DNA of 38,231 nt from Candidatus Zipacnadia bacterium (GTDB lineage Bacteria > Armatimonadota > Zipacnadia > JALGUG01): the NCBI GenBank assembly GCA_029820995.1, contig JALGUG010000041.1, positions 1 to 38,231 on the forward strand, read 5' to 3'. Shown piece by piece: positions 16,668-33,929 of this stretch (within the stretch, counting starts at the first letter, position 1; each line of letters begins with the position of its first letter). Under the pieces are notes generated by a model. It searched no databases and had not been told where the DNA came from. It saw only the letters and a program-made list of their open reading frames with translations. Made by a program: the position numbers and the translations under genes.

Positions 16668-18116
16668 TCAGCTTTGGCCGGCGCCGCGATTGACGTAGAC
16701 GCCGGCGGCACGGTTGGCCGGAGCGACCTCCACCCGAAAGCGCTCAGGCAGCCGATCGCCCCAGCCTCGGATGCTGTTCTCCTGTTCGCCACACAGGGGG
16801 CAATTATCCTGCTTTTGGAAGGCGCCCGATAGATCTGCGAGCTGGAGGCCGATCTCCTCGTATTCGATGTAGCTGGGCGTGGGGGCATCAAAGCCGCCGA
16901 AATACGACAGTATGGCTCGCCAACAGAGGTTGGCCGCGACGCAGTTGATCGTCACCACATTGGCCGGGGTGTCTCCGTCTCCGTTCTCAACGTAGCCCGG
17001 GTGCACGCGGTCGGTCACGTAGTGGGGATTGACGAGGTCGGTGGTGTCGAGGCCGTTGCAGACGAGACACTTGCCCTCCGGGGTCTGGACTCGAACCTGG
17101 CAACCGGCCTTTAGCCGGCCGTTCTTGGTGCGGCGCGTGCCGGCGCCCATATCAAACAGCGGCTTCTGGTAGCGGGCCGCGAACTGAGCCAGCTCATACC
17201 GAGCGAAGTCGTTGTCCACGGCGCCGATCAGAACATCACAGTCCTTCAGCGCCGCCTCGGCTTCCGGCTCGGGGTACCAGACGTCTACGGTGCGCAGGTC
17301 GGCGCCGGCCCCGAAGAAGGAGGTCAGCTCGCGCCGGGCGATCTGCGTTTTCCGCTCGCCGAGGTCGCCGGCGCGCCAGCCAAACAGCCGGTTGGCGTTG
17401 TGAATTTCGGCCCGGTCGGCGTCAATCAGGGTCAGACGCTGCAAACCGAAGAACTTGGCCAGGGCAATCCAGGCGCTGCCCGAGCCGCCACAGCCGACCA
17501 CTCCCCAGCGCAGAGTTTGCATCAACCGCAGCGCGCGCGTCCCGTGCTCACCCAGCATGCCGATAGTGCGGTCGTGGAGAGCGGCATCCACGTCAGCAAC
17601 GTAGTTCATGCTTGGAGCGCGGCTGCCGACGGTCAGGAACATCTGCAGCGACTGCGGCCCCGCAACCTTCACCAGATCAATGGGCTCCCAGTCCGTCTCG
17701 CGACTGCGGACGAATCCGCGAATACCGTTGGCGCCCCAGATCGCCTCGACGTGGTAGCCGTCGGCGATGAAGTCCAGCGTGTTGCGGGCCTTCATCGGAG
17801 CCTGGATGGCGTCGAGCACGGAGAAATTGGCCGCCCCACCGTGATTGTGAAAGGCCAGCAGCCCGCTGTGCTCACGCGTACGCTGGAGTAGCGCCAGTAC
17901 ACGATCGGCGTGCAGGCTGGCGTGCACGGGTGTTCGCTCCTCGTACTCCTGCTCCTCGGGGATGTACGTGTCGCGGACGATGAACTCCCGCTGGTGGTCG
18001 GTCTCAGACAGGCCGAGCAAGCCGAAGAACAGGCGCTCGTTCGGATCGTCCCCGCTGAAGTGCTCTCGCAGGCGCTCGAAGGCGCTCTCCGGGAACGACA
18101 GGACATTGCGTTTCAC
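16668..18116 (-). CDS. JAMM (JAB/MPN) - E1 (ThiF-like) fusion protein
   Basis: A 482-residue fusion of a JAMM metalloprotease and an E1-like adenylating enzyme. N-terminal domain (about 1-150): His90 and His92 in AFHNHGG and Ser99/Asp102 in FSVLD fit the HxH...SxxD zinc site; Glu27 is the likely catalytic Glu. C-terminal domain (about 195-440): nucleotide loop GVVGCGGSGSAW (from 205), acidic turn IDADRAEIHNANR (231-243) and Lys256 in GERKTQ, as in ThiF/MoeB/E1 enzymes. Two Cys pairs (CLVC and CPLC) probably hold a structural zinc. It would activate a Ub-like C-terminus while the JAMM part trims or removes it. It is the last gene of the cluster, 86 bases after the 76-residue Ub-like gene, its most likely substrate. 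Confidence 0.88.
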   Translation of the reverse strand: MKRNVLSFPESAFERLREHFSGDDPNERLFFGLLGLSETDHQREFIVRDTYIPEEQEYEERTPVHASLHADRVLALLQRTREHSGLLAFHNHGGAANFSVLDAIQAPMKARNTLDFIADGYHVEAIWGANGIRGFVRSRETDWEPIDLVKVAGPQSLQMFLTVGSRAPSMNYVADVDAALHDRTIGMLGEHGTRALRLMQTLRWGVVGCGGSGSAWIALAKFFGLQRLTLIDADRAEIHNANRLFGWRAGDLGERKTQIARRELTSFFGAGADLRTVDVWYPEPEAEAALKDCDVLIGAVDNDFARYELAQFAARYQKPLFDMGAGTRRTKNGRLKAGCQVRVQTPEGKCLVCNGLDTTDLVNPHYVTDRVHPGYVENGDGDTPANVVTINCVAANLCWRAILSYFGGFDAPTPSYIEYEEIGLQLADLSGAFQKQDNCPLCGEQENSIRGWGDRLPERFRVEVAPANRAAGVYVNRGAGQS

Positions 18117-18202
18117 GGGCGATCACTCCCTTCTGCCCGTGCGGGGGCCGGTATCCCCCACCTCGGCGGCGCGGGCTAGCTTGTCCCCTGGAGTCGTGGA
18201 CA

Positions 18203-18433
18203 CTAGCCGACGCGCCAGTTCTCAATGACTCCGTACACCTGGCCCTCCTTGTTCTGAATGGTCTCGTTGTCGCGCAAGGCGGCACCGGTGCGAGCATCGT
18301 AGAGGACCTTCTTGTTGGACAGGTCGGCCTTCTCGCGCAACTCGCGGACGGTGCAGGTCTCCGGCACGCACACGCGCTCGTCTCCGACGATCACTTCTAC
18401 CTCACCTTTAGTCTCAATCTTCGGATTCGACAT
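18203..18433 (-). CDS. ubiquitin-like (beta-grasp) protein ending in Gly
   Basis: A 76-residue protein, the same length as ubiquitin. After about ten residues comes a predicted beta-hairpin (VEVIVGDERVCVPE), a helix (TVRELREKADL), a strand (KKVLYDART), the turn GAALRDNETIQ and a final strand (QVYGVIENWRVG). This order and the motif with D-N-E-T before the last strands resemble bacterial Ub-like and multi-ubiquitin domains. The chain ends in a single glycine, as needed for activation without processing, rather than in Gly-Gly. The ATG at 18433 is preceded by CGGGAGCTGATCAC. Genes on both sides encode an E1-JAMM fusion and an E2-like fold. The assignment rests on pattern and context. Confidence 0.72.
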   Translation of the reverse strand: MSNPKIETKGEVEVIVGDERVCVPETCTVRELREKADLSNKKVLYDARTGAALRDNETIQNKEGQVYGVIENWRVG

Positions 18434-18545
18434 GTGATCAGCTCCCGTTGAGTGGTCGCCTCAGCGACCGGAATGGAGTTGCCGGCCCCGCGAACAGGGA
18501 ACGCTCTTCGGCGCCCGACGAGACAGGCGCCCACAGGCGTACGCC

Positions 18546-19019
18546 TCAGTAGAAGCGGCGATAGTTGTATTTGAGGCATGACGCCAGGTACACTTGCAGC
18601 ATTCGCAGATAGTCCAGTACCGTTGTGTGCTCGTCGGCCCGCGGAGGATGGATCGAGATGTAGCGCCAGCCGTCGTCGCCCGTTCTCCGACGCGGGCGGT
18701 CGCCGTAGAGAGGGATGGTAACGAACTTCTTTTCGGCCGGATCGAACACTTTAAGGCCCGGGTCAATGTAGATATCGCGGTAGAAATAGTACTGACCGTC
18801 CGCCACGGGATCATAGAGATTGCTGGGCACAGGGATTCTGACGTTGGTATGATCCTGGTTGATGTTGTCCGGTAGTTCCACGTTCTCGATGACGAGGACG
18901 CGGTTTGAGGCGTCGTCATTCCAGAAGACGTGCTCCTGAATGACCTTGCCGTTCTCGTCGCGCTCGTCGTACCGCGCCATGGCCAGTTCCAGGTCACGGC
19001 GGAAGCGTTCGGCGTTCAT
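18546..19019 (-). CDS. E2-like (UBC-fold) protein with Ser at the expected Cys position (tentative)
   Basis: A 157-residue protein. An N-terminal amphipathic helix (about 1-20) precedes a meander of strands (VLVIENVELP, VRIPVPSNLYDP, YYFYRDIYID, FVTIPLYG). Then come WRYISIHPP and a long helix TVLDYLRMLQVYLAS. The last part aligns by eye with NICIVDQW...TVRQLLENLADCL of the true E2 in this cluster, with Ser122 in the place of the catalytic Cys. It could therefore be an inactive UEV-type partner or an E2 using serine. The only other Cys (148) is near the C-terminus. Its ATG overlaps the upstream stop as ATGA. A perfect 12-bp palindrome AGGCGTACGCCT (18535-18546) lies at its stop. The fold call is tentative. 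Confidence 0.6.
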   Translation of the reverse strand: MNAERFRRDLELAMARYDERDENGKVIQEHVFWNDDASNRVLVIENVELPDNINQDHTNVRIPVPSNLYDPVADGQYYFYRDIYIDPGLKVFDPAEKKFVTIPLYGDRPRRRTGDDGWRYISIHPPRADEHTTVLDYLRMLQVYLASCLKYNYRRFY

Positions 19020-19555
19020 CCCGCATTCCTCCTGTTGGCGCGAGGGGCCCGACGGTTGGCCGGCGGCGTTACCGAGCCACGGGTCGGCAGCCGCTCGCTC
19101 TCAGTGTCCGCGTCGGACTCCTCGATGAGGCGCTCGTAGCCCGCACCGTTGGTGGTGATGTCGCGCCACAGGGTGGGCGCTTGACGGTCGCGTTTGCGCC
19201 TCGTTTCTTGGTCCCGCAAGTTGAAGGGCAAAGGTCGCATCTCATCCTCCCAGGTGGTGCGCAGTGTTTCATCCCAGATGGAGCTCAGCCGCTGGTCGTC
19301 GGCCAGCCGGACCTCCGAGGCGCCGAGCCACGGTGGGTGGTAGAGAGCACGCTCAGAGCCGAGCGGCTCGTCCGGCTCCAAATGCTCGTCAGGGTCAGCG
19401 ACGTCGTCCTCAAGGCTCCAGAGTTCGCCCGAGAGCAGATACCACAGAGCATCACGGAGATTGATAGTACGGGCTGCAGCGAACTTGACGTATCTGCCCA
19501 GGACGAAGCCACAGAAGAAGATGAGGATCCAGGTCCAGGCCGCCAGAGCGCTCAC
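19016..19555 (-). CDS. single-pass membrane protein of the cluster, unknown
   Basis: A 179-residue protein whose GTG start at 19555 overlaps the stop of the upstream gene (GTGA). A longer frame to 19639 would run inside that gene and is rejected. It has one membrane segment at about residues 5-22 (AWTWILIFFCGFVLGRYV). A soluble tail follows, first acidic (about 45-75) and then rich in Arg, with a basic low-complexity C-terminus (PPANRRAPRANRRN). No family is recognised. It may anchor part of the E1/E2-like machinery at the membrane. It is translationally coupled to genes on both sides. Confidence 0.72.
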   Translation of the reverse strand: MSALAAWTWILIFFCGFVLGRYVKFAAARTINLRDALWYLLSGELWSLEDDVADPDEHLEPDEPLGSERALYHPPWLGASEVRLADDQRLSSIWDETLRTTWEDEMRPLPFNLRDQETRRKRDRQAPTLWRDITTNGAGYERLIEESDADTESERLPTRGSVTPPANRRAPRANRRNAG

Positions 19556-19917
19556 CGCTTTTCCCTGCCTTCCCGCACAGCTTGCAGGATTGTCTCGATG
19601 ATGCTCTGCGCGCTTTGTTCGGCGACCGGCTTGGCGCAAAGGGCATCAATTTCTTTACGCAGACCGACTCCGGCTTTCGCGGCTTGAAGCAGCACAGGCA
19701 GGCACAGCGTTGCCAGCAACTCGTCGGAGGAACTGGCGTTCGCGATGCGTTCTTTCAGGGCCTGTGACTTGACGCAGGCCACTAGGGCCCATGCGAGGGC
19801 CTGAGACCGTGGATCGAGCCCTGCGCTGGGCAGCCAGAAGTCTTCTCCGGCCTCACGGGCGCGCAAGATGTCGGCAATGGTCGCCCGCAGTGGTCCGATG
19901 TCCCAGGATGAACTCAC
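19552..19917 (-). CDS. small helical protein of the cluster, unknown
   Basis: A 121-residue, mostly helical protein. The GTG start at 19917 overlaps the stop of the E1-like gene by four bases (GTGA), and its own stop overlaps the next start in the same way. Upstream frame to 20196 is open but lies inside the E1-like gene. It contains LRATIADILRAREAGEDFWLP, then several Ala/Leu-rich helices, and no Cys pair or enzyme motif. It resembles in size and composition the other unknown small protein of this cluster at 29828-30352, both being helical with Ala/Leu-rich repeats, but I cannot show homology. Confidence 0.7.
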   Translation of the reverse strand: MSSSWDIGPLRATIADILRAREAGEDFWLPSAGLDPRSQALAWALVACVKSQALKERIANASSSDELLATLCLPVLLQAAKAGVGLRKEIDALCAKPVAEQSAQSIIETILQAVREGREKR

Positions 19918-21293
19918 GGGAGCACACCTTCTTCCCTGCTGAAGCAGTCGCACGAGAAGCGCGAGCGAAGTGGCTCGAACCGAGCCGGCGATCGGCTGTC
20001 GTATTCCAGCACGCCATCGAATGCGAAGTCGGGGTCGCGTAGGGCCTGGCACAGGTGGAGCATCAGGCCGGCGGCGAGCCAATTCGTGCTGACGACGCTG
20101 CCCTGGGGGCGATCGCTGCAACTGACTGCTTCCCGATGCACCAGAGCCGCGAGGTCGGGGCGGCGGTGATGCAAACAGGCCGAGCCGCGTCCGCAAAGAT
20201 GGGTGGTGGCACCGAAGGGCGAGCAGCCGCCATTGACCATGACGAGCCGGCCACCGACGCGGCGGGCGGCATCGTCACAGATTGCGCGGACGGACCAGTT
20301 GTCGCCAGCCGCCAGCAAGACAGTGGCCTCGGGATGGCGGTCAATGAACTCCGGCCCCTGCACGAACTCCGGTATCGGCTCGACGATTAGGTCGGAGGGC
20401 GCGAACTGCGGCAAGCGCCGAGCGAGGGCTTGTACCTTGGGCTCGCCGGGCACAAGCAGCGGGCAGCGGGCGAGATTGCTCTCTTCGGCGACATCCCCGT
20501 CATAGATCACCAAGCGGTCGGTCAGGTCGGCGAGTCCCAGTGCCAGAGGATTCCCGAGACCGCCGGCGCCTACCAGGACAACTTCAGGATGGCGCGCCGG
20601 CACAGGCACAGGACGATGCAGTGGCAGCATGTGCCGTATCAGCGGGGGCTGCGGCGGCAGATCGCCGTCCAGTGGCATGACCAGGCGCCGCACTTCTTGG
20701 AGCGCGGTCCCGACCGCAATTAGCGCAGTGGCCACGTTTGCGCCGTGATCGTCGGCGGCGAATTGCTCAAGCTGTTGCAGAGCTTCCCAGTGAGCCCCAC
20801 CGGGCATGCTGGGGATGTGAACGACGCCGGCGCCGCGCCAATTGGCGGCCAAGATCAGAGTTTGCAATTCGCCCTCGACGGTTGCCCGCACGCTCTCGGC
20901 GACGGCAGGAAGATGACCCGTGCAGTCCACGAGGACGTGCGGGCGATCGAGGAACTCCCCCACTGCGACCAGATCTGCGGCACTACCGTCGGGGAGTATT
21001 CGCACCGGTACATCAGCATAGACCTCAGTGATGATCTGACTGAGTGCCGCTGCCGGCGTCTGACCGGTTCGGTGCAGGAAGGGGTCCGGCAAAGACAGCT
21101 CCGCGGGCTCCAGCAGGCAGACGCGGCAGCCCAATGCCGCGGCCCCGAGCGCCAGCAGCCGGCCAGGTCTGGTCTGGACGCCGCGGACGATGATCGTGGT
21201 CGCTGCCAGAGGGAGCTGATCCCAGCCGGGGATCAGATCGTGCCGGCTCCGGTCAGTTGTCTGGTTGTTCGTCGCAGGTCGCGGCAGGGCCAT
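19914..21293 (-). CDS. E1-like protein with two Rossmann-type domains
   Basis: A 459-residue protein. The second half is a clear ThiF/E1 adenylation domain: VVLVGAGGLGNP (from residue 238), IYDGDVAEESNLAR with Asp265, Asp267 and Arg276, Lys286 in GEPKVQ, and the later segment CSDRPQGSVVSTNWLAAG typical of E1-like enzymes. The first half (about 30-200) looks like a degenerate copy of the same fold (IIVRGVQTRPGRLLALGAAA...CLLEP, then VLVDCTGH), giving an inactive-plus-active pair like eukaryotic E1s. The ATG at 21293 has GAGGACCCGACCG upstream and overlaps the JAMM gene by 41 bases. It is likely the activating enzyme for one of the Ub-like proteins. Confidence 0.85.
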   Translation of the reverse strand: MALPRPATNNQTTDRSRHDLIPGWDQLPLAATTIIVRGVQTRPGRLLALGAAALGCRVCLLEPAELSLPDPFLHRTGQTPAAALSQIITEVYADVPVRILPDGSAADLVAVGEFLDRPHVLVDCTGHLPAVAESVRATVEGELQTLILAANWRGAGVVHIPSMPGGAHWEALQQLEQFAADDHGANVATALIAVGTALQEVRRLVMPLDGDLPPQPPLIRHMLPLHRPVPVPARHPEVVLVGAGGLGNPLALGLADLTDRLVIYDGDVAEESNLARCPLLVPGEPKVQALARRLPQFAPSDLIVEPIPEFVQGPEFIDRHPEATVLLAAGDNWSVRAICDDAARRVGGRLVMVNGGCSPFGATTHLCGRGSACLHHRRPDLAALVHREAVSCSDRPQGSVVSTNWLAAGLMLHLCQALRDPDFAFDGVLEYDSRSPARFEPLRSRFSCDCFSREEGVLP

Positions 21294-22449
21294 CGGTCGG
21301 GTCCTCAAGATCGGTATCGGTATGAGCCTGAGTAGCGTCGGTGGAGGCTACATCGTGTTGCTGAGCCCGCTCGTACATCATCTGCTGCAAGGCCTCCACG
21401 AGGTGTCCGGCGGCCGCAATTGCAACCGCCAGCGGCTCCGGCTGCTGCTCCGCTGCCGAAGCGCTCTCTGCGGATTCAGGTTCTTGCTCAGCGGGCGAGG
21501 CGTGAACCGAGGCCTCAGGCGCGGCGGCCAGCGCCGCAGGCGGTTGCTCCTGAACCGCGGCGACCGGGCCGTCGTCCTCCCACTCGCGGGAGGAGTCCAC
21601 TGAAGAACCGCTGTTGCGCCAGTTCTTCCAGATCCAGAATCGCGTGGGCTCGATGCGCTCGTTCACCAAGGCTTCCCACAGGCTTCGGTCCACCCGGAGT
21701 TGGGCCTTCTCCGACGCGGATTCGACCTCGATGGTGATGGGCTCGATGGTCCGCTTGGGCGCCCGGCACACAATCGAGGGGCAATAGCGAGTGACGAGAC
21801 ATCTCCCGAAGTAGTTCTCGCCGGCGTTTACGATGGCGTGCACGATACTCTGCGCCTGTGGCTCCTGCAGGTGCACTTCGCTGACGCTGAGCACGGCGCT
21901 GTGGTCCGGGGTCACGCCAAGCAGCGAAGGAGCGATGGGGTCGCCATCGAGGCGCAGTTCAGAGTGCGGAGTGAGCCGCAGGGAGCACTGCTTGACTGGT
22001 CTTTCGGCGGCGGGGATGAATTCGAGGAGCTGGGGCGACATCTCCTCGGCCATGGTGTTGAGCAGTTCCATATCCTGGGGCGACAGAAAGCCGGTTCCAC
22101 TGAGCGCACCGGGATGCCAGTGGGCACTGCCGATCAGAACCTCGCGGTCGTTCGATTCTTGCAGGCGGGCGGCGATCTGAGCCACTGACTCGCTGTCGGC
22201 AGTGACGCGACCGTGGCTCGCCTGCTGCGCGGGCAGCTCGACGCGCGTCACGCGGTCAAGAGCATCGCGCTCGGCGACTAAGAGGACGTAGAACTCGCGG
22301 CCCTTAAGGCGCCCGTCCTGCTCCATGATATCATTGATCAGGCGGAACTCCTGGTGGAAACGGGGGGTCAGCCGTAAGACGCGCGGCAAGGGAATGGGCT
22401 GACCGAGAAGCTGCTCCGCTTCGGTTTTTGCGTCTTTGGAGAAACTCAT
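21253..22449 (-). CDS. JAMM (JAB/MPN) metalloprotease with disordered acidic tail
   Basis: A 398-residue protein. The N-terminal domain holds a full JAMM zinc site: Glu43 in MEQDGRLKG (E-x2-G-x-L-x-G pattern), His110 and His112 in GSAHWHPGA, then Ser123 and Asp126 in LSPQD. Such enzymes cleave isopeptide or C-terminal peptide bonds next to Ub-like proteins. A middle domain (about 150-290) is unassigned. The last 110 residues are low complexity, rich in Glu, Pro, Ala and Gln, and probably disordered. The ATG at 22449 follows TAGGAGGACGAGC, an excellent ribosome-binding site. It lies just upstream of, and overlaps, the two-domain E1-like gene. Confidence 0.85.
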   Translation of the reverse strand: MSFSKDAKTEAEQLLGQPIPLPRVLRLTPRFHQEFRLINDIMEQDGRLKGREFYVLLVAERDALDRVTRVELPAQQASHGRVTADSESVAQIAARLQESNDREVLIGSAHWHPGALSGTGFLSPQDMELLNTMAEEMSPQLLEFIPAAERPVKQCSLRLTPHSELRLDGDPIAPSLLGVTPDHSAVLSVSEVHLQEPQAQSIVHAIVNAGENYFGRCLVTRYCPSIVCRAPKRTIEPITIEVESASEKAQLRVDRSLWEALVNERIEPTRFWIWKNWRNSGSSVDSSREWEDDGPVAAVQEQPPAALAAAPEASVHASPAEQEPESAESASAAEQQPEPLAVAIAAAGHLVEALQQMMYERAQQHDVASTDATQAHTDTDLEDPTDGPAATCDEQPDN

Positions 22450-22459
22450 GCTCGTCCTC

Positions 22460-23878: not shown

Positions 23879-24289
23879 TCAAGCGCCGCCCACGTGGTCC
23901 ATGCCCAGGCGGTAGCGCAGCGTCCGTCGCTCGCCCAATCGCACTTCGCTGTCGCGCGTGGTGGGAGCACAGGGGCCGCCCTCCATCTGGATTTCCACCG
24001 ACGCGTCGGGACGGCGGTAACGTGCTCGGGCGTGATCGCCGAACACGCGGGTATCGTAGTCGGAGGCGTTGTCCAGCATCTCCAGCGCCAGACCGAAGAT
24101 CTGGTCGGCCGACCGACCCTCCACCTGATCCGCGGGCAACTCTACGGTGCGTCGGCCACCGGACCCGAGGTCAATCGTAACCGACACCGTATCGGTCGGG
24201 AGCTGGATCGCCGGGCGGGCCGGCCGATCGGCATCACGCTGATCATCCTGCGGTTGAATGTGCTCCAGGGTCATGCTGTCATGTTCCAT
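23879..24289 (-). CDS. small protein ending Gly-Gly-Ala, possible ubiquitin-like modifier
   Basis: A 136-residue protein. The first 30 residues are polar and probably disordered. Then come two strands (VSVTIDL, RRTVELP), a helix (SADQIFGLALEMLDNAS), a charged stretch with further strands (ASVEIQMEGG, SEVRLGERRTLRYRLG) and the C-terminus MDHVGGA. The hairpin-helix-strand order could be a beta-grasp fold. A Gly-Gly-Ala end would give an activatable Gly-Gly after removal of one residue by a JAMM enzyme. Both points are inference. The ATG at 24289 is chosen for the upstream GGGAGGCACAAAGACG. It follows the Clp-type unfoldase by 45 bases. Confidence 0.65.
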   Translation of the reverse strand: MEHDSMTLEHIQPQDDQRDADRPARPAIQLPTDTVSVTIDLGSGGRRTVELPADQVEGRSADQIFGLALEMLDNASDYDTRVFGDHARARYRRPDASVEIQMEGGPCAPTTRDSEVRLGERRTLRYRLGMDHVGGA

Positions 24290-24334
24290 CGTCTTTGTGC
24301 CTCCCATCAATCTTGGCTGGACGGGGCGGAGTTA

Positions 24335-26668: not shown

Positions 26669-26696
26669 TGCAGTAGTACCTCGTCTTGGTGCGGCC

Positions 26697-28316
26697 TTAT
26701 GCCAGAGCGGCTTCTGCGGCATGCTCCTGCCAGACGACGGTGATATCGGTGACGCGCTTACCTTGGAGGTCCGGCAGCATCTCATCCAGGTTGCCCCGGT
26801 TTTCGCGCAGCCGATCGCCCAGGGCCATGACGCGCTCGTCAATGGCGGCGTTGATGTGCTCCCAGCGCACCTTGCGCTTGCCGTTGTCAGCATCATGTGT
26901 GGCTTTCATGTTCGCCGTCTGCGCGACGCCATAGATCAAGGCGGGCGAGAGCATGTCGGGGAGGAAGACGTGGTGGTCTTCACCATCCACTTTGCACTCG
27001 ACCAACGGGCACGAGCGGTCCGTCAGCCGGTCGGCGGCGCGGAGACATGCCTCCTGGTGGTCATCGAGCTCGAGGCGTTCGAAGTGAACCTCCAGCACCT
27101 CGTGCACCTCGTCGGGTTGGAGGTATTCATATTTGAGCGTCGCGGTGAGGCGATGATCGTTGCGCAAGGCAAAGTCAATCTCCGCAGGGAGATTGGTTGT
27201 AATGGCCAGTACGACCGGAGCAGTCGGGTAGTGGTACCGCAAGTCATCAATCACGTTGAGCAGCGCCGAGGTGATGGCCTGGAGGGTCGAGCGGACCGAG
27301 GAGAACTCATGCTGGGTGCGACTGGTGGCGATGACGTCGCCCTCGTTGATCACCCACAGCACCGGGCGTTCCTGCGCCATCTCAGCCACATAGTAGCCAT
27401 CGGCCTTGACCGCACCCTCACTGCTGCCGAAGACGGGCTGACGATAGTGATGAGGAGCACGTTCCAGCAACAGACAGTCGGGTATCTGCTGGGCGGCCCA
27501 TTGCATGGAGTATGTCTTGCCCAAGCCGGTGACTCCCTGGCAAATGATGAAGATGGGGAAGCCCATCTTGTCTCGGTCGAGGAAGTCTTTCGGTCGGCTG
27601 AGCGGCTCGATGACATATTGCTCAACCTGCCGGCGCACTTTGTGACAACCGCCGAAGCGGAGCGCCCGCTGGACCCGCCCCTTGGCGTGGGATTCCTCAT
27701 CAATCTTCGGTGCGAGGGCGGCGGCAAGCCCGTGGCGGGAGCTGCCCAGGATGCGCGTGCCGCGGCCGAGCTTTCCGTTGATCGCGACCAGTGGCTGAGC
27801 CAACGTGACCCACTTGGTGCCGCCACTTTTGGCGCCCCAGTCCACTTTGGCACGTGTGCCAGTGTCGTCCAGGCCCAAGATGATGCCTTCTTCTTCGCAC
27901 TCAAATACGTTCGCGTCGGCCTCGATAGCCAAGGCCGAGGATGGATCGAGCCACACGGCCTGGCCCACAAAGGGGTCTTGGATGACCGGCTCGCCGTTTT
28001 CGCCGGTGAGAATGCTGACCCGGTCGTACTCCCCGCGGTGGGAGACGACAAGCGCGTTCTGCCCCGACAAGACCCGCTTGATCGGCACCAGCGTGTTTGG
28101 ACCCTTCTGCAAGTCGTCCAGCAGCTTGGCGAGCTGGGCGCGCTCCTTTTGACCGCGCGCATAGATTGCGTCGCATACGTCCAGCATCGTAGCGAACTGC
28201 TCAATGCTGTTGATCTGTGAGAGGATCGCTTTGCGCTCCCGAGCCTTCCGGGCGGCTTGCTCCTCCGTCATCTGCACATAGGCGATCAAGCGTTCGCCGA
28301 GGGGCTGGTCCGGCAT
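26697..28316 (-). CDS. ARC/Mpa-like AAA ATPase with N-terminal coiled coil and OB-like domains
   Basis: A 539-residue ATPase. Residues about 17-70 form a charged coiled coil (EEQAARKARERKAILSQI). Then come two beta-rich segments: FVGQAVWLDPSSALAIEA recalls the OB domain of ARC/Mpa, and EEEGIILGLDDTG...WVTLAQPL recalls its second OB domain. The AAA module has Walker A GVTGLGKT (261-268), a Walker B-like VLWVINEGD in which Asn replaces the usual Asp, and sensor-1-like AITTNLPAEIDFAL. ARC/Mpa rings unfold Pup-tagged proteins for the proteasome. Here the C-terminus is AAEAALA, without the HbYX docking tail. The ATG at 28316 has CTGGAGGTGTGTC upstream and overlaps the JAMM gene by 31 bases. Confidence 0.78.
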   Translation of the reverse strand: MPDQPLGERLIAYVQMTEEQAARKARERKAILSQINSIEQFATMLDVCDAIYARGQKERAQLAKLLDDLQKGPNTLVPIKRVLSGQNALVVSHRGEYDRVSILTGENGEPVIQDPFVGQAVWLDPSSALAIEADANVFECEEEGIILGLDDTGTRAKVDWGAKSGGTKWVTLAQPLVAINGKLGRGTRILGSSRHGLAAALAPKIDEESHAKGRVQRALRFGGCHKVRRQVEQYVIEPLSRPKDFLDRDKMGFPIFIICQGVTGLGKTYSMQWAAQQIPDCLLLERAPHHYRQPVFGSSEGAVKADGYYVAEMAQERPVLWVINEGDVIATSRTQHEFSSVRSTLQAITSALLNVIDDLRYHYPTAPVVLAITTNLPAEIDFALRNDHRLTATLKYEYLQPDEVHEVLEVHFERLELDDHQEACLRAADRLTDRSCPLVECKVDGEDHHVFLPDMLSPALIYGVAQTANMKATHDADNGKRKVRWEHINAAIDERVMALGDRLRENRGNLDEMLPDLQGKRVTDITVVWQEHAAEAALA

Positions 28317-29365
28317 GACACACCTCCAGTGAGAACCTGCTCAGCAGTACGATCGGGGACAACGGCGAGGCCTGGCTCGGCGACAACTTCGCCTCTCTGC
28401 CACGAGTAGAACATGTAGGCGGTGGTGCTGTCGTCCGTGCCGGCCACGTTGATAATCAGTGAGCCTTTCCAGGCCGCGGCCAGGCGATGACGAATCAGGC
28501 GCTTGTCGGTCGGCGAGATGGCCGCGACGCGGATATTCTGAGGGTCTTCCACGATGTGCGTGTGGTACACGCCGAGTAGAGGGAGCTCCTCGTTGACGAC
28601 CTCATCGAGCGCCTCGGGTGGCGCGGTGACGCTGGTCTCGTCGGCTTGTACCGTCGCGCTCAGAAGCGGGTGTGCTTTGAGCACAACGGTGAAGGCGCGT
28701 TGGATCTGGCAGTCGTAGAATAGGCGGCCGTGGAGCGTGCCCATGGCCTCTCGCTCGATGTCGCTGTGGACGTGCTCCTTGACCTGGTCGAAGGCGCTCT
28801 TGATGAATAGCTTGGCGCAGTTGCCGCGGGAGATCGTGCCGATGAGCTGGGCGGCTTCAATCAACTCGGTCAGCGGGCGGTGAGGCACGCCACTGAGCTT
28901 CCAGGTCCGATCAGTGACGCCACCGCTGAGGATGCGCAGGCCGCGCGCTGCGCGGGGCGCCACTTGGGGTGGGCTACCATCGAGACCGATCTGGTAGACA
29001 GCACGCGCTTTCTCATCGAGGCCCTCGTGCTGGATGATCTCAAGCCAACAATCCTGTGCGCTCCCCTCCAAGGCCTCACACTCAACGGGAATGGGCTGGC
29101 GGGTCACCAGGTGCCCGTTCACGTGCACACAGGCCAGCAGCGCGGCGACCTCGTCGGGCTGGTCGGGCGTGACCAGCGGCACCACTGTTGCTTCGCTTTC
29201 GCCGTCGCAGGGCACGAGGGGCAGGGCGATCAGCGCTTGCTCGGTGGCCAGAGGCTCCAGGGCGTACTTGGGCACCGGCCGGCGGAATTGCCGCTTGTCG
29301 GGTCCTCCGGTAAAGGCAAACGTGAGGTACTGCTGCATCGGTGCTTTCTCCGGCGACGCCGCCAT
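28286..29365 (-). CDS. JAMM (JAB/MPN) metalloprotease with N-terminal extension
   Basis: A 359-residue protein. The C-terminal half (about 185-345) is a JAMM domain: Glu206 in EAMGTLHGRL (E-x2-G-x-L-x-G), His268 and His270 in GVYHTHIVED, and Ser284/Asp287 in ISPTD give a complete zinc and catalytic set. The N-terminal 180 residues are of unknown fold, with strands and no recognisable motif. Such enzymes deconjugate or process Ub-like tails. The ATG at 29365 follows AAGAGGGGACTCAA. It overlaps the ARC-like ATPase gene downstream, suggesting deubiquitination coupled to unfolding, in the manner of Rpn11 in the 26S proteasome (analogy only). Confidence 0.87.
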   Translation of the reverse strand: MAASPEKAPMQQYLTFAFTGGPDKRQFRRPVPKYALEPLATEQALIALPLVPCDGESEATVVPLVTPDQPDEVAALLACVHVNGHLVTRQPIPVECEALEGSAQDCWLEIIQHEGLDEKARAVYQIGLDGSPPQVAPRAARGLRILSGGVTDRTWKLSGVPHRPLTELIEAAQLIGTISRGNCAKLFIKSAFDQVKEHVHSDIEREAMGTLHGRLFYDCQIQRAFTVVLKAHPLLSATVQADETSVTAPPEALDEVVNEELPLLGVYHTHIVEDPQNIRVAAISPTDKRLIRHRLAAAWKGSLIINVAGTDDSTTAYMFYSWQRGEVVAEPGLAVVPDRTAEQVLTGGVSCRTSPSANA

Positions 29366-29441: not shown

Positions 29442-29493
29442 GGGGAGCCGGGAACCTGCGCCGCCCGGGAAGGAGGCCGGCGCCCGGCTCCCC
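29442..29493 (-). promoter_or_regulatory. intra-operon hairpin between Ub-like and JAMM genes
   Basis: GGGGAGCCGGG (29442-29452) and CCCGGCTCCCC (29483-29493) form a perfect 11-bp stem around a GC-rich 30-base loop. It lies in the largest gap (136 bases) within the middle of the cluster. No T-run follows in either direction. It may be an RNA processing or stability element, or a leaky terminator that sets the dose of the tag-conjugating genes above the ATPase genes. Confidence 0.6.
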
Positions 29494-29501
29494 AAGGGAG
29501 G

Positions 29502-29831
29502 TCAGTTGCCGGTGAGCTCGGGCGCGAGCGTGAGGTCCACGCTTGGCTGCTCGCCCAGGCCGACACCGGAATCGCTCAAGGCGTTTCCCAGCGTCTGACC
29601 GGGGTCGAGGCGCACGGACGTGCTTCCATCGTCCGGCGGCCGCGCGTAGACGCCATAGGTCCCGCTCGGCAAGCCCAGTGCCGGCGCGTCGGCGGCGATT
29701 TCGGAGACCTTCAGGTCTCGGTCAATCGCGGCCGTGGCGATGAGCTTGCCCGACTCGTCATGGATTCGGGCCTCAATTTCGTCCACGTCCTGGGCGCCGA
29801 CTTCGTCGAACGGCTGATCGTATTTGCTCAC
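29502..29831 (-). CDS. ubiquitin-like (beta-grasp) protein, non-Gly C-terminus
   Basis: A 109-residue protein with a short acidic lead and then a beta-grasp-like order: strand EIEARIHD, turn, strand IATAAIDRDLKV, helix VSEIAADAPALG, strand GTYGVYARP, and SVRLDPGQTLGNALSDSG before the final strand VDLTLAPELTG. The pattern D-P-G-Q-T-L...G near the end recalls Ub-like domains of the YukD type. The chain ends Thr-Gly-Asn with no terminal Gly pair, so it may be a binding module or need trimming of the last residue. The GTG start at 29831 overlaps the upstream stop (GTGA). A Ub-like call rests on pattern and neighbours. Confidence 0.68.
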   Translation of the reverse strand: MSKYDQPFDEVGAQDVDEIEARIHDESGKLIATAAIDRDLKVSEIAADAPALGLPSGTYGVYARPPDDGSTSVRLDPGQTLGNALSDSGVGLGEQPSVDLTLAPELTGN

Positions 29832-30352
29832 CTTGGTTCACCTCCCGTTTTGGTGGATGTCCCGGCTGGCACAGGCTCTTTGTGCAGAGCCAGGAATTCT
29901 TCGGCGAGCGTTGAGCTGGTCAGGAGAGCCTTCACCAGCGGCGCGATCAGACGAGCCAGGTCGCTCAGCGTCGCCAGGCGCTCGGCGAACAAGGCGCTGT
30001 CGGTGGCCGGCATCTCGACCCCGAGGACTGCCCTGGCCGCCGTGAGCTCCAAGCGAAAGGGAGCTCGCAACTGCTCGTTGAGTCGCGTCACAAAGGCCTC
30101 ACACGCTCGCTGCCCGATCGGCTGCACCTCCTTCCCGAGCCGCTCCCGGGCCACAACCTCGACCAGAAGACGCAGCACGGACTCGTCGGCCTCGGCGACC
30201 AGCTTGCACCGCTGATTGCCGGCGAGCAGCGAAGCCGTCCAGCGCGGCGGCTGCTCGCGGACCTGCTTGAGGCCCTGCAAGGCACCGGAACGCGCCAGCA
30301 CCTGTGCAAGGCGGTCCACGACGTGACGTGCTGCGGTCGAAGTGTCCGTCAT
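29828..30352 (-). CDS. unknown helical protein of the cluster
   Basis: A 174-residue protein of mostly Ala/Leu/Arg-rich helices (HVVDRLAQVLARSGALQGL, LLVEVVARERLG, RLATLSDLARLIAPLVKAL) with no recognised motif. Its ATG at 30352 is one base after the E2 stop, and its stop overlaps the Ub-like start by four bases. It is therefore expressed in step with E2 and the Ub-like protein and may be their scaffold or adaptor. This is inference from position only. The C-terminus is flexible (PVPAGTSTKTGGEPR). Confidence 0.72.
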   Translation of the reverse strand: MTDTSTAARHVVDRLAQVLARSGALQGLKQVREQPPRWTASLLAGNQRCKLVAEADESVLRLLVEVVARERLGKEVQPIGQRACEAFVTRLNEQLRAPFRLELTAARAVLGVEMPATDSALFAERLATLSDLARLIAPLVKALLTSSTLAEEFLALHKEPVPAGTSTKTGGEPR

Positions 30353-30353
30353 G

Positions 30354-30986
30354 TCAGTCCACCTCCCGGTGCAGTACCCTGAGACCGGGCGCTCGGGGAG
30401 CCACAGGGCGCCGTGCCAGGTTGGCCAGGGGCAGCTCGAACTTGTGCTGGCGGGCGAAGAACTCGGAGGCGGCCGGATTCAGAGCATTCCGCGGCGCCAG
30501 CGAATAAGTGCCCGGCGTGAACACGAGGCAATCGGCCAGGTTTTCGAGCAGTTGGCGTACAGTCATGTCGCGCCGCCACTGGTCCACGATGCAGATGTTG
30601 TGGCCAATGGTGTGCGGGTGGGCAATCGTGGCTGAAAGGCCGACCATCACGACCTCCGGGCGTTGGTCCGGGTGGTCCGGCAGCCGAACCGCAACGTGGA
30701 CCGGACCTGCATCGAGGCCGACCATGCTGTCGTGGATCTTGGCAGCGCCCAGCCGTAGCAGTGCCCCAATGTTGCGCTCGCGAGCTAATCCGCTCAGCTC
30801 GTCGTCGGTGTATCGAACTGTAGGGATGTCGAGTTCGACGCCAAAGCACTGGTCGCCGGTCTGGGGCAAGCTGCCGTGTTGGGCCAGACGAACCGGACTG
30901 GAGGGATCGTTCGTCGCGGCCACGACGGACTCGAAGTGCCGACGCAGGTAGCTTTGCCGCTGGGCTTCAATGTTATCAGGTGTCAC
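30354..30986 (-). CDS. E2-like ubiquitin-conjugating enzyme (UBC fold)
   Basis: A 210-residue protein that looks like a working E2. The core runs VHVAVRLPDHPDQRPEVVMV (strands and the fP..yP..P-type loop), IAHPHTIGHNICIVDQW and the helix MTVRQLLENLADCL. It aligns with the eukaryotic E2 pattern HPN...G.ICLD...W....TI..VLLSI, which puts the catalytic cysteine at Cys132. The N-terminal 90 residues are longer than in ubiquitin E2s. The start is GTG at 30986, which follows GGGAGCTGAGTGGC and overlaps the E1 stop by 11 bases; the frame open to 31232 lies inside the E1 gene. It would accept an activated Ub-like protein from the neighbouring E1. Confidence 0.82.
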   Translation of the reverse strand: MTPDNIEAQRQSYLRRHFESVVAATNDPSSPVRLAQHGSLPQTGDQCFGVELDIPTVRYTDDELSGLARERNIGALLRLGAAKIHDSMVGLDAGPVHVAVRLPDHPDQRPEVVMVGLSATIAHPHTIGHNICIVDQWRRDMTVRQLLENLADCLVFTPGTYSLAPRNALNPAASEFFARQHKFELPLANLARRPVAPRAPGLRVLHREVD

Positions 30987-32130
30987 GCCACTCAGCTCCC
31001 AGCACCGCGGGTGCATCGCCGCGGAGCTCGTAATGGACCTGCCGGCGGCCCGCGCGGAAGGTGAGAATGGGCCACAGGGGCAGGCCGAGCGAGGCTGGAG
31101 TGCCGTCCGGCGGCAGGAGATCCTCCGTGATCTCCGTCGGCCCCCGCGCCGTGCCGATGACACTGGTTCCGCCACATTGAGGGCACTCGAAATGGCGCTG
31201 CATGGCCCACAAACGCTCCTCCACATGGCCACAGGGGCACTCCAGCCTCTGCTCGGTGTGCTCGAGGAGCAGTACGGGCTGCGCTCCCAGGTCCTCTTTC
31301 GCGCGCGCGAAGAATTGGCCCAGTGGGACCTCGCTATTTGCTGCGCAAACGTCGCGTTCGGCCAGCCACTGTGCCGGTCGGTGATCGCAATCCGGTGCCG
31401 CCGGGATGGTGCTGCGCCACACGCTGAGGCCGTTGGTCAGGTCGGCGCGAACCTCCACCGCCTCAGTGATCCGCCCGGTGATGAGGCCGGTCGCCATCTC
31501 CACAGCCAGCGCGCCGGCCAGCGCGCCGGCGCCGATGACGGCAATCGTGGGATCGGGATCGGGCAGGTTCAGCGGCCGCCCGGTGCAGCTTTCGCTCTCC
31601 AGCGAGTCCGGCAGCCCAAGGCAACGTGCGCAGGCCGCGTGCGGATCTGCCGGCCAAGCGCGAACGGCCACGCGGCGACCTCCGAGTCCGGTCGTGACCA
31701 TGGGCAACGATGCGAGCGTGGCCATTCGCGCCAGGAACAGCCGCGTGGCAGCTCGGTCTACACAATCAAGAATCACTGCTCCGCGCTGTGCGGCATACGC
31801 CCAGAAGCCCTGCCCGAGCCACTCGGCTCGGCCGACGAAGGCCACGGCGCGACAGTGCGGCAGCTTGTGGTTTCGGCGGCGGGCCAGCTCGGCCGCTTTG
31901 GGCGCGCCCGGCTCCGTGTAGGATGGCACCATAAGCGTGGTCTCGGTGATGATGTCGTCGTCAACAATGACACTGTCACCCACCGGGCAGGCCTCGCTAA
32001 GATGCGCTCCACTCATGCCTGCCCCGACGAGTATCAGGAGGGCGTGCTGGAGGCGATCGCCACCCGCTCTGCGGACGCGGTCTAGACGGTCGTTGCCATG
32101 GCGCACAATCTTGCGCAGATGCCGTCGCAC
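30976..32130 (-). CDS. E1-like (ThiF-family) enzyme with C-terminal zinc ribbon
   Basis: A 384-residue E1-like enzyme. LLILVGAGMSGAHLSE (nucleotide loop from Gly36), VIVDDDIITETTLM (acidic turn, Asp57-Asp59) and Lys78 in GAPKAAEL mark the adenylation domain. The usual Arg after the N-L pair is not present (TTLMVPSYT). DCVDRAATRLFLARM follows. Cys pairs AACARC and, at the C-terminus, CPCG...CPQCGG suggest zinc sites. The GTG at 32130 follows GGAGTAAGGACC and lies 5 bases after the FHA-RING stop; the frame open to 32214 overlaps that gene and is rejected. Placement directly before the E2 makes it that enzyme's probable partner. Confidence 0.82.
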   Translation of the reverse strand: MRRHLRKIVRHGNDRLDRVRRAGGDRLQHALLILVGAGMSGAHLSEACPVGDSVIVDDDIITETTLMVPSYTEPGAPKAAELARRRNHKLPHCRAVAFVGRAEWLGQGFWAYAAQRGAVILDCVDRAATRLFLARMATLASLPMVTTGLGGRRVAVRAWPADPHAACARCLGLPDSLESESCTGRPLNLPDPDPTIAVIGAGALAGALAVEMATGLITGRITEAVEVRADLTNGLSVWRSTIPAAPDCDHRPAQWLAERDVCAANSEVPLGQFFARAKEDLGAQPVLLLEHTEQRLECPCGHVEERLWAMQRHFECPQCGGTSVIGTARGPTEITEDLLPPDGTPASLGLPLWPILTFRAGRRQVHYELRGDAPAVLGAEWRDT

Positions 32131-32135
32131 GGTCC

Positions 32136-32591
32136 TTACTCCTGCCTGGCCTGACAGCGGAAACACTTCTCGGTGCTCTCGACGCAGAATTGGTGGTGGG
32201 CCACGGCGCCGCATGAATAGCAGAAGACTACCGCGTTACCCGGCTGGAAGCGCTTACCGCAGACGGCGCAGGCTTCCTGCGTGTGCCGAGCGGGATCGTA
32301 CTCCTCAACTCGTGGCCCGGTTACCCGTTCGAGCACCAGCGGTTCGCCCCCCAGCCGCAGGCGGTTCCTTATTCCGGAAAGCACGCGCATGCCCGCGATG
32401 AGCGCCCGTCCATCCACCGTATCGTCGTCGCACGCTGAAATGAGGATCTCCTGTCCTTCGGCTTGCACGATTGAGGCGTGGTGCTGCAGTATGCCGGCCG
32501 CATCGAGAACGATGTCGTTGCCGGCACCGGAGCCAATGCGCGTCAATGGCTTGAGCCGTAGAACCTGGTCGCCCGCTGTGGCTCGAAGCAT
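32136..32591 (-). CDS. FHA domain - RING/PHD-like C4HC3 zinc finger protein (E3 candidate)
   Basis: A 151-residue two-domain protein. Residues about 5-88 look like an FHA domain: LTRIGSGAGNDIVL, QHHASIV and later DDDTVDGRAL. The expected GR and SRxH residues are replaced (GS, LQHH), so phosphothreonine binding is doubtful. The C-terminal domain has four metal pairs: CAVC (108, 111), CYSC (124, 127), H-x2-C (133, 136) and CFRC (143, 146). This C4HC3 cross-brace pattern is shared by RING-variant and PHD fingers and by the prokaryotic RING families. Together with E1 and E2 next door, it is a good candidate E3-like targeting factor. The ATG at 32591 is chosen because AGGTAGGTGCTC precedes it. Confidence 0.75.
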   Translation of the reverse strand: MLRATAGDQVLRLKPLTRIGSGAGNDIVLDAAGILQHHASIVQAEGQEILISACDDDTVDGRALIAGMRVLSGIRNRLRLGGEPLVLERVTGPRVEEYDPARHTQEACAVCGKRFQPGNAVVFCYSCGAVAHHQFCVESTEKCFRCQARQE

Positions 32592-32687
32592 GATGAGCAC
32601 CTACCTGTCTATCGTCGCTCGCCCCGGTCCGGATGTCCATGCGAATCAGCATGGAGCAGCCGGGCAACAGGCGCACGTGCTTTCACG

Positions 32688-33929
32688 CTAGTGCGCATAG
32701 AAGGTGTTGTCCCGGGTGCGCACAAGGGCGATCTTGGCCTCTGGTTTGATGGCGTAGCCCTGGCCGCGAGAGGTCACGACCAGGTCGCGGAGCGCCGAGT
32801 GGGTCCTGCGCAGGGCAACGATGTCCTGCCGGATGGTCTGCTCGACATCGTCGCTGGACCGGCCTGGTCGCGAACGCTCGTAAAGCTCCTGATGAGATAC
32901 GACCGCGTCCGCGAAGTCGAGGGCATGTTCCACAAGAGCTTGAACCACAATGAACTTAACGTCCTTGCGCTCGATGATCTTACGCCCGCGGACATAGGCC
33001 TGGCCCCGGTCGTAGACTAGGAGGTCGAATCGCTTCGCGCAATCAGCCAGCTCGTCGTGCCGGATGACTTGCCATCCACTTCTGGTCTGAAGCTTAAGCA
33101 CGGAGCTGTGGTGCCGATACCGCAGGAAGAGCTCTAGTGCCAGTTTGCAACTGAATAGGACTGTGTTATCCGGATAGCGGGCGAGCAATCCGCATTCGAG
33201 GGCCTCTGCAACACGGTCCAGAGGGACGACGAAACGGTACGGGGGGGCCGTTAGCAGCTCAAGGTCGGGCCATAGCTCTCGGTGATCAGTGATGATCTGC
33301 TTCCACCAGGAGACCGGTGGCCGTTCGGCTTCAGCCAGCAGTTTCTGACGGGCCAACTGAACGTGCTCCTGTTCGATCCGGCCCCCCGGCGAGATATCTT
33401 CAGCGGCGAGGCAGATGAGGTGATCAATGAGTACCGGGGAAGCGCCGACCAGTTCCCGGATGTCGGCACTGGCGTTGACCCCGATGCGAAATCCATGGGC
33501 CCGAGCGAGTTCCGCGATGCCAGTCTGGTCGGCAACAACAAAAGGGAGGCGCCGCCAGCCCGAGGGAGTGCGCGGGACGGTTGGGCTGATGGCCGCGATG
33601 ACCTGAAGGTCGGGTTGGTACGGTACGAGTAGGGCTAGATCGCGGAGGAAGTGGTACAGTTTATCCCCCAAGCAGTCGAGTCCGATCAGGATCCAGTGCG
33701 TCTGCACGCCCCGCGAAGGGCCAGGCCGAAGGAAGCGCTTGAACTGTTCGATTCTTGCGCTGGGGCTGCCGGTCGCGAGCCGGAAGTCGAACACGCAGAA
33801 CCGCGTGTCGGCTGTGGCAATGTACACGAGGGCGCGTTGGGTGCCGCCGTCCTCTCCAACGTTGACAGCGATCAATTTGCAGTTCTCCAGCAGAGGCACG
33901 AGCTCCTGACACAGATCGGGCACTGCCAT
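32688..33929 (-). CDS. OmpR-type winged-helix regulator of the cluster
   Basis: A 413-residue protein. The last 95 residues form an OmpR/PhoB-type winged helix: VKFIVVQALVEH..DAVVSHQELYERS, then DDVEQTIRQDIVALRRTHSAL and VVTSRGQGYAI, matching the usual V-R-G-x-G-Y wing. The N-terminal 310 residues are of unknown fold, with no response-regulator Asp site or Walker motif recognised. They may sense a signal or bind a partner. The ATG at 33929 has GGAGGAGGGTAGCG before it. It is the first gene of the cluster and a likely transcriptional regulator of it. A shared motif (CTGTAAGAC) lies upstream of both this gene and the JAMM gene at 29365. Confidence 0.8.
   Translation of the reverse strand: MAVPDLCQELVPLLENCKLIAVNVGEDGGTQRALVYIATADTRFCVFDFRLATGSPSARIEQFKRFLRPGPSRGVQTHWILIGLDCLGDKLYHFLRDLALLVPYQPDLQVIAAISPTVPRTPSGWRRLPFVVADQTGIAELARAHGFRIGVNASADIRELVGASPVLIDHLICLAAEDISPGGRIEQEHVQLARQKLLAEAERPPVSWWKQIITDHRELWPDLELLTAPPYRFVVPLDRVAEALECGLLARYPDNTVLFSCKLALELFLRYRHHSSVLKLQTRSGWQVIRHDELADCAKRFDLLVYDRGQAYVRGRKIIERKDVKFIVVQALVEHALDFADAVVSHQELYERSRPGRSSDDVEQTIRQDIVALRRTHSALRDLVVTSRGQGYAIKPEAKIALVRTRDNTFYAH

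Follow-up and report, generated by a model that had tools for sequence, protein, structure and literature searches.

Two or three likely ubiquitin-like tagging pathways and two unfolding-family ATPases in one bacterial gene cluster

A single gene cluster in an uncultured Candidatus Zipacnadia bacterium likely encodes two or three ubiquitin-like tagging pathways together with two ATPases of unfolding families. We analyzed a 38,231-nucleotide stretch of its genome (contig JALGUG010000041.1; hereafter the window), in which 18 closely spaced genes run along the minus strand from position 33929 to 16668. These comprise three ThiF-type E1s, three candidate tags, three JAMM motifs, an FHA-RING protein, E2a with its catalytic Cys, U437 as a second likely E2, a degenerate E2_E-like protein, one Cdc48/PAN-class AAA ATPase and one Clp-type ATPase. 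The cluster is confirmed as a genuine conjugation-type gene row, likely made up of cascades A and B and an appended module of known type, C. Bacterial E1/E2/Ubl operons are already known, and those known to us read as tagging systems; the apparently undescribed part is the presence of two likely cascades and unfoldase-class ATPases in one operon. From gene content, motifs, spacing and a gene order kept in one relative, we propose, with a probability of roughly 0.55, that the operon is a tag-and-unfold machine, in which proteins tagged by cascades A and B are pulled apart by the AAA and Clp rings. The genes, in order along the strand, are as follows:

32688..33929, minus strand: predicted regulator, first gene; start ATG at 33929; C-terminal OmpR-like winged helix
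32136..32600, minus strand: FHA-RING protein, candidate E3; Prok-RING_1 and FHA
30976..32214, minus strand: E1a, adenylating enzyme of ThiF type; Cys-rich C-terminus, possible GTG start at 32130
30354..31016, minus strand: E2a, conjugating enzyme; HPH...NIC active site
29828..30352, minus strand: helical protein between E2a and UblA; same place in the relative G267
29502..29831, minus strand: UblA, candidate YukD-like tag; C-terminus PELTGN
28286..29365, minus strand: JAMM1, candidate tag peptidase; HTH..SPTD motif
26697..28316, minus strand: AAA ATPase, Cdc48/PAN class; N-terminal region of about 220 aa
24335..26668, minus strand: double-ring ATPase of Clp type; lacks a long M-domain and has an IGF loop in D2
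23879..24310, minus strand: UblB, candidate tag; beta-grasp-like core, C-terminus GG-A
22460..23773, minus strand: U437, likely second E2; HMFV..G..VCLDDW motif
21253..22449, minus strand: JAMM2, candidate tag peptidase; HWHP..S..D motif
19914..21293, minus strand: E1b, ThiF-type adenylating enzyme; ThiF 1.4e-12
19552..19917, minus strand: helical protein, last of the shared block; same place in G267
19016..19555, minus strand: protein with one predicted N-terminal transmembrane helix; hydropathy maximum 2.18
18546..19019, minus strand: E2c, degenerate protein of Prok-E2_E-like type; lacks the Cys found in relatives at this position
18203..18433, minus strand: UblC, candidate tag of 76 aa; ends WRVG
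16668..18116, minus strand: JAB-E1 fusion; ThiF 2.6e-25 at residues 184-440

A preliminary description had placed seventeen genes on one strand; the single strand holds, and with the winged-helix regulator the genes number 18. Nearly all of the frames (17/18) passed a simple codon-position GC filter, the exception being the short helical frame at 19552; as some antisense frames pass it too, the filter alone is little proof. Intergenic spacing varies with the choice of start, four genes may overlap the preceding gene by 4 bp, and the widest gap, before JAMM1, is 136 bp, which is consistent with one transcript.

Gene order in relatives, to which the preliminary description had pointed as a check, is indeed retained in one relative. 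A block of 13 genes, from the FHA-RING gene to the helical gene after E1b, is kept in order at G267:C189, in a MAG from a different family of Candidatus Zipacnadia, with identities of 24-37%; eight of the 13 genes were recovered by tblastn, and the other five were assigned by place and 27-36% alignment. The G267 block opens with the FHA-RING homologue, and no counterpart of the regulator (Trans_reg_C E=0.002, under cut-off) was seen in G267. Complete loci of the block are known from these two genomes only. In a third genome, G266, RING and E1a lie at the end of a contig, and neither the G267 AAA nor U437 found a match, so that this genome may have an incomplete block or one that the assembly has lost.

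Domain matches uphold the view of a ubiquitin-like conjugation cluster with an FHA-RING E3 candidate and two different AAA+ ATPases. In pathway A (FHA-RING, E1a, E2a, UblA and JAMM1), the FHA-RING protein scored 31.7 bits for Prok-RING_1 (cut-off 29.1) and 20.7 bits for FHA (cut-off 20.7). E1a matched ThiF at 2e-8 and the E1s of the phylum by hhalign at P=99.5, is 31% identical to its G267 counterpart over 355 aa, and has the motifs GAGMSG and GAPKA; the E1 GxGxxG and GxPK/GxRK motifs are intact in the cluster E1s. Sequence divergence keeps E2a and UblA from matching Pfam directly. By hhalign, E2a was matched to true E2s of the UQ_con-type family (P=95, E=2e-8), with its HPH...C aligned on their HPN...C and the catalytic Cys in register (Cys127, counted in 205-aa numbering). 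A scan for the E2 active-site pattern in 2271 open frames of 34 stretches gave 16 occurrences, 15 in E2 genes and one in U437, with a shuffled expectation of 1.0 per pass. The initial count of E2s is corrected: an active-site motif resembling that of E2s in the 437-aa protein brings the candidate E2-fold proteins to three. JAMM1 matched Prok-JAB/JAB weakly, under cut-off, and the JABs of the phylum by hhalign at E=0.001 with P only 19; the HxH..SxxD motif was found in three cluster proteins, with weak Pfam JAB matches, under cut-off, for JAMM1 only.

Operons of YukD-like Ubl, E1, E2 (UQ_con), JAB and Prok-RING_1 (with FHA) genes were reportedly described by Burroughs, Iyer and Aravind in 2011 as bacterial E3-containing systems. 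As simpler YukD-Ubl/E1/E2/JAB/RING operons occur at 7 of the 19 phylum loci examined (one, L061, assigned by Pfam), pathway A appears to be a divergent form of that kind. It shares with them the RING and FHA domains, Cys-rich E1, E2, JAMM and the Ubl tail PE(L/I)T(A)G; unlike them, the window also has a second E1/E2-like/Ubl/JAMM set and two ATPases, one a Cdc48/PAN-class AAA and the other of Clp type.

The first of the two ATPases matched AAA at 1.1e-7 and a Cdc48-type D1 in the PDB at 4.7e-10, which places it nearest Cdc48/PAN. Its Walker B position reads NE, and that of its G267 homologue (24% identity over 572 columns, the gene split into two in-frame ORFs) reads DD, where DE is usual. The preliminary description had called it ARC/Mpa-like. 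As in the Mpa/ARC-Pup-proteasome system, an AAA ATPase of the same broad class adjoins a tagging system; unlike there, pup_AAA (TIGR03689) is far under cut-off (14.4 bits vs 504.75), the C-terminus, AEAALA, has no HbYX, and the 20S proteasome was not found; the assignment is not supported. The claim that no proteasome is visible stands: the only PF00227 match in the window's genome, which is 95% complete, is HslV.

The Clp-type ATPase (probable start 26668) matched AAA_2 at 6.3e-57, with ClpB/ClpA models under their equivalog cut-offs. Its IGF aligns with the LGF and MGF of two Clp proteins encoded elsewhere in the genome, which also encodes ClpP and HslV. This [ILMV]GF loop in D2, which we take to be the ClpP-docking loop, is missing from the most ClpB-like genomic Clp protein and from the G267 and G007 counterparts of the window Clp. 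At the G267 slot stands a weakly similar 382-aa single-domain protein with no D2, which gave no Pfam AAA match and was not recovered in a search with the window Clp; its kinship to Clp was judged by eye and by a 29% alignment. In G007, genes for Clp D1 and D2 adjoin a Ubl-E2_E fusion and a JAB-E1. Tag-and-degrade, as first proposed, therefore draws on the IGF loop of the window Clp and loses ground at the other two loci, where the slot is unrecognised or the loop absent; unfolding or disassembly is the safer reading.

If cascades A and B function as their motifs suggest, then UblA would be trimmed after ...LTG by JAMM1, and UblB after ...GG by JAMM2; the trimmed tags would be adenylated by E1a and E1b and carried by E2a (Cys127) and U437 (Cys352). 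As a candidate E3, the FHA-RING protein may recognise partners that are phosphorylated. Unfolding or disassembly of tagged targets would fall to the AAA and Clp rings, with possible hand-over to ClpP in this genome by way of the IGF loop, and recycling of the tags to the JAMM enzymes. A more ambitious version, possible though rather unlikely, is a proteasome-less bacterial analogue of the ubiquitin-Cdc48/26S logic: two orthogonal tags, served by separate E1, E2 and JAMM enzymes, would direct targets to a Clp ring and a dedicated ring of Cdc48/PAN class, with substrates chosen by a phospho-reading FHA-RING E3 and ClpP as an optional end point. An operon that joins two likely full cascades to unfoldase-class ATPases would allow a direct test of whether bacteria couple ubiquitin-like tags to unfolding without a proteasome, a question that touches on the possible assembly of the ubiquitin-Cdc48-proteasome axis.

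Module C (E2c, UblC and JAB-E1) adds a third unit, of a known type, to the cluster in this genome. The JAB-E1 has an HNH..SVLD motif at residue 90 and near-full-length relatives elsewhere in the phylum. By hhalign, E2c matched the E2_E-like proteins beside eight JAB-E1 genes (P=67, E=5e-5); E2c itself has no Pfam match, and two relatives match PF14462 above cut-off, one at 2.6e-13. UblC resembles the Ubl portion of the Ubl-E2_E fusion in G007 (0/1000 shuffles as good); no similarity was found to two other such Ubls, and hhalign to the pooled set was not significant. Ubls of this module type measure about 70-75 aa and have a C-terminal Gly, and the candidate UblC, at 76 aa, ends in RVG. In Iyer et al. 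(2006; PMC1779556), the fifth operon type (row 6e) joins a Ubl, an E2_E-like protein and an N-terminal JAB fused to an E1, and includes an E2-like protein without the Cys. Module C, with UblC as its candidate Ubl, has this row 6e architecture, which is also that of Bub (JAB-E1, E2-like protein, small Ubl); here it trails another system in one gene row. The Caldiarchaeum archaeal ubiquitin operon (PMC5654768) has a JAMM-trimmed ubiquitin precursor, E1, E2 and small RING; the window differs in its bacterial host, two likely cascades, ATPases inside the operon and undetected 20S proteasome. BilABCD (PMC11354881) has four genes, with one two-domain, ISG15-like Ubl (BilA) and no ATPase or RING, and likewise unites E1, E2, Ubl and JAB in one operon.

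In another possible, though rather unlikely, account, the cluster serves in conflict (anti-phage or stress) by conjugation, with tagging itself as the output, as proposed for Bil/Bub-type systems, and the ATPases regulate or disassemble and are not degradative unfoldases. The JAB-E1 matches Citrobacter BubCD in the PDB (1.2e-5), among other E1s, genes of conflict type occur in related operons (a CHAT protease at G000:C203, a weakly ART-like protein in G007), and the Clp slot or loop is degenerate in both G267 and G007. Against this, PADLOC, applied to 10 of the cluster's 18 proteins, yielded nothing beyond cross-hits to E1-E2, JAB, TRIP13 and, once, CARF, and viral contigs contained no E1a relative.

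Pathway B (UblB, U437, JAMM2 and E1b) is a likely second cascade. E1b (hhalign P=96) has a homologue in G267, and JAMM2 matched the JABs of the phylum at E=1e-4, P=54. We consider U437 the likely second E2 from its sequence motif, with candidate active-site Cys352: the H, FV, G and C are invariant in 4/4 homologues, two of them near-identical, and the G267 homologue lacks the motif's W. UblB is a candidate beta-grasp-like tag according to its AF2 model, in which residues 41-100 have pLDDT 75-82 and later strands about 56-62; structural matches are of ubiquitin/ISG15/SUMO/YukD type, and the Foldseek list includes Caldiarchaeum ubiquitin (6fnn, TM 0.53 by target). The initial claim of one full set stands as to the conjugation set and fails as to its being single, with cascades A and B likely, plus module C.

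A further reading, which we consider improbable, is that U437 does not have an E2 fold, nor perhaps UblA a Ubl fold, leaving one complete cascade (A) and accessory proteins. U437 had no Pfam match above cut-off and nothing meaningful in a PDB profile search, its hhalign at the E2 active site is weak (E=0.012), and its AF2 model is uninformative on fold (pLDDT 31.6). The best hhalign partner of UblA is the YukD-Ubl family, over 83 columns and not significant, with RnfH-Ub at E=0.13 and scores against two YukD-Ubls within shuffles; tail, length and position make it a candidate YukD-like Ubl fold. What argues for two cascades is the invariance of H-FV-G-C, the specificity of the motif scan, the beta-grasp-like UblB model and the conserved tag tails: LTGN of UblA is identical in G267, UblB has its GG there too, and both tags end in G plus one residue in either genome. 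Sulfur transfer or cofactor metabolism with ThiS/MoaD-like tags is very hard to credit: ThiF is the nearest solved structure to E1a by sequence, and its weak NCBIfam matches are ThiF, MoeB and SAMP E1, but the operon holds E2a, RING and JAMM genes and family scans of it show no thiamine or molybdopterin pathway gene.

The helical protein at 29828..30352, with no family match at cut-off in the family scan, is 36% identical to its G267 counterpart in alignment, and that at 19552..19917, which may overlap E1b by 4 bp, is 33% identical to its own. Module C-type genes (JAB-E1/E2_E/Ubl) occur in other Armatimonadota, and in G267 they lie on a different contig from the 13-gene block.

The window is an entire contig (G000:C353; 38231 bases) from a 5.5 Mb MAG with a completeness of 95% and a contamination of 5%, and it carries a cluster of 18 genes. 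Among the minus-strand frames of the cluster, 17 of 18 passed a codon-position filter; starts with a 4-bp overlap are possible for four genes, and the widest intergenic gap is 136 bp. Searches with Rfam and for tRNA genes gave zero matches, and promoter and terminator scans returned signals no better than chance. The features are as follows.

33929 to 16668, minus strand: the 18-gene cluster
Genes 1 to 9, in order: wHTH regulator, FHA-RING, E1a, E2a, helical, UblA, JAMM1, AAA, Clp-type ATPase
Genes 10 to 18, in order: UblB, U437, JAMM2, E1b, helical, one-TM protein, E2c, UblC, JAB-E1
34292 to 35602, minus strand: SorC-type (Sugar-bind) regulator gene, directly upstream of the operon and on the same strand

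We assign the RING protein, E1a, E2a, UblA and JAMM1 to a pathway A, and UblB, U437 (437 residues), JAMM2 and E1b to a pathway B, which are likely two ubiquitin-like cascades; E2c, UblC and the JAB-E1 fusion make up a 3' module C. The parts are known; their arrangement, two likely ubiquitin-like cascades together with unfoldase-class ATPases, is apparently undescribed in the open-access literature searched. The arrangement is real, and we read the cluster, with a probability of roughly 0.55, as a tag-and-unfold system with JAMM recycling.

Simple operons of YukD-Ubl, E1, E2, JAB and RING genes, a kind reportedly described by Burroughs in 2011, served as the comparison for the cascades. All five parts were found in 7 of 19 phylum loci examined, counting one locus with a split E1 and one with its RING gene on the opposite strand; in one such operon (L061), YukD (4.4e-12), UQ_con (3.4e-11), JAB (1.6e-10), Prok-RING_1 (5e-17) and FHA (2e-7) all exceed their Pfam cut-offs. 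Aligned by hhalign with the simple-operon families, the window families gave probabilities of 99.5 for E1a, 97 for JAB-E1, 96 for E1b and 95 for E2a (E=2e-8), and of 61, 54 and 19 for RING, JAMM2 and JAMM1, respectively. The best partner of UblA was the Ubl family, at a non-significant level, and UblB, UblC and E2c found no partner among these families. The best alignment of U437 was with E2, a weak one (E=0.012) spanning 32 columns where the active site lies. A scan of 34 stretches with 2271 open frames for the E2 active-site pattern gave 16 occurrences, in 13 E2 genes of simple operons, the E2a genes of the window and of G267 (a Candidatus Zipacnadia MAG), and U437; shuffled controls gave 1.0 occurrence per pass over three passes. 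The G267 homologue of U437 keeps the H, FV, G and C of the pattern and is missing its final W. A PDB profile search with U437 gave nothing better than E>=1, and structure prediction yielded an uninformative model. The UblA tail, LTGN, is identical in the window and G267, and the UblB tails of the two loci read GGA or GGGGV. The eight simple Ubl tails end in EITAG (six), EITAGR (one) or EITAG read on into a longer frame (one).

The preliminary description had proposed looking for the same gene order in other Armatimonadota, and a 13-gene order, from FHA-RING to the helical gene after E1b, is indeed present in G267 (contig C189). With window proteins as tblastn queries against 25 loci, a small set to which the E-values refer, we detected eight of the 13 block genes there (RING, E1a, E2a, UblA, JAMM1, AAA, JAMM2 and E1b) at 24-34% identity and in the same order and strand. 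The remaining five were recognised by place, length and alignment, with these identities:

Helical gene after E2a: 36%
Clp slot (the place held in the window by the Clp-type ATPase): 29%
UblB: 30%
U437: 27%
Helical gene after E1b: 33%

AAA matches occur in 12 of 291 phylum genomes, the window's own included, and longer stretches were compared for nine of the 11 others; among these, only G267 (same class, other family) is co-linear with the window. A scan of genome contigs with an E1a alignment gave two relatives among 112 pattern matches, G267 and G266. The cluster-bearing relatives are Candidatus Zipacnadia MAGs of the Armatimonadota and share the class label given to the window's genome. G266 carries RING and E1a at the end of a contig; searching it with the G267 AAA and with U437 found neither. 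U437 has matches in two of the 291 phylum genomes and, in a protein-database search, two further proteins. Such searches with AAA and E2a returned the window itself only, one of them scoring just 7998 candidates sharing most words, and 254 viral stretches held no E1a relatives. The cluster is partly conserved. Another locus, L021 (G275:C119), has an AAA match plus short, weak matches to the helical gene after E1b, the one-TM protein and U437; this could reflect kinship that is more remote or has decayed, or chance.

Among PDB structures, the AAA protein finds Cdc48-type D1 domains (4.7e-10), and PAN/Cdc48 models match it weakly. Walker A is intact, and Walker B has NE in place of DE. An earlier ARC/Mpa-like label did not hold: the family score is below its cut-off and HbYX is absent. 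In the G267 gene (L019:3316-5076), a stop and a gap of 24 nt separate the N-terminal part from the ATPase, both in the same frame; the gene may be naturally split or decaying.

For the Clp protein, the PDB matches are ClpB, ClpC and ClpA chains, and the long ClpB middle domain is missing; every ClpB or ClpA equivalog score fell under cut-off. The D2 loop reads IGF in the window protein and LGF or MGF in two genomic Clp proteins, and the genomic Clp closest to ClpB has no such loop, in a comparison that leaves out the L088 row. The label 'ClpC-like' is ours and follows the loop; NCBIfam placed none of the three genomic Clp proteins above a cut-off, the two with LGF and MGF loops included. The G267 Clp slot holds a 382-residue protein with D2 missing, which has no Pfam AAA match, is missed by a search with the window Clp, and looks by eye like a degenerate N-domain joined to a single AAA domain. 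In the phylum genome G007, Clp D1 and D2 genes adjoin a Ubl-E2_E fusion and JAB-E1, and the loop is not GF; this locus (L110, G007:C18, 9184-16465), where D1 and D2 come from separate genes, also has a weakly ART-like protein and, by eye, multi-TM and vWA-like proteins.

The tag-and-unfold reading is weakened because the G267 Clp slot went unrecognised by search and no AAA was found in G266. The same evidence weakens the idea of a bacterial ubiquitin-Cdc48/26S analogue without a proteasome, which we consider unlikely. The window's genome has ClpP and HslV. Degradation via ClpP is possible there; it is not conserved, since the G267 slot is without D2 and the G007 loop is not GF. That no proteasome is visible, as first described, stands for the window's genome: its PF00227 match is HslV, not a 20S subunit, and the AAA match beside it is probably HslU.

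At a threshold of 1e-6, 55 of the 291 genomes have JAB-E1 relatives, many matching the ThiF part alone. In 8 of 15 loci compared, the E2c profile matches weakly (E 0.001-0.2) directly 5' of JAB-E1, and in seven of the eight a small Ubl-sized ORF precedes that match. Two scanned E2-like proteins beside JAB-E1 pass the Prok-E2_E cut-off (2.6e-13 and 2.8e-6), and that of G267 has no match above it. UblC is similar to the Ubl of G007, with a score that none of 1000 shuffles equalled, and shows no such similarity to two other Ubls. The G267 JAB-E1 module sits on a separate contig from the 13-gene block, and module C is therefore outside the shared block. The PDB match of the window JAB-E1, Citrobacter BubCD, links module C to Bub. 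In PMC1779556 (section 14), the fifth operon type has the architecture of module C.

In the simple operons, several proteins (L056, L061-L064, L066) end, by eye, in a short acidic-hydrophobic motif (for example DLGIELL, DIDIDLH, DLEIEFL) resembling a tag-interaction motif. A trypsin-like protease gene (L064:4005-4922; Pfam 1.5e-33) lies between E2 and Ubl, and genes with similar endings occupy the same place in L056 (6535-7563) and L062 (4803-5810). A second operon in the window's genome (L054, G000:C203:260-10547), a candidate tag-linked protease, encodes a ThiF E1, a CHAT-domain protein, a weak JAB protein and a fusion of YukD, which scores below cut-off, with UQ_con. It also encodes two Prok-RING_1-like proteins, both below cut-off, of which one matches UQ_con weakly.
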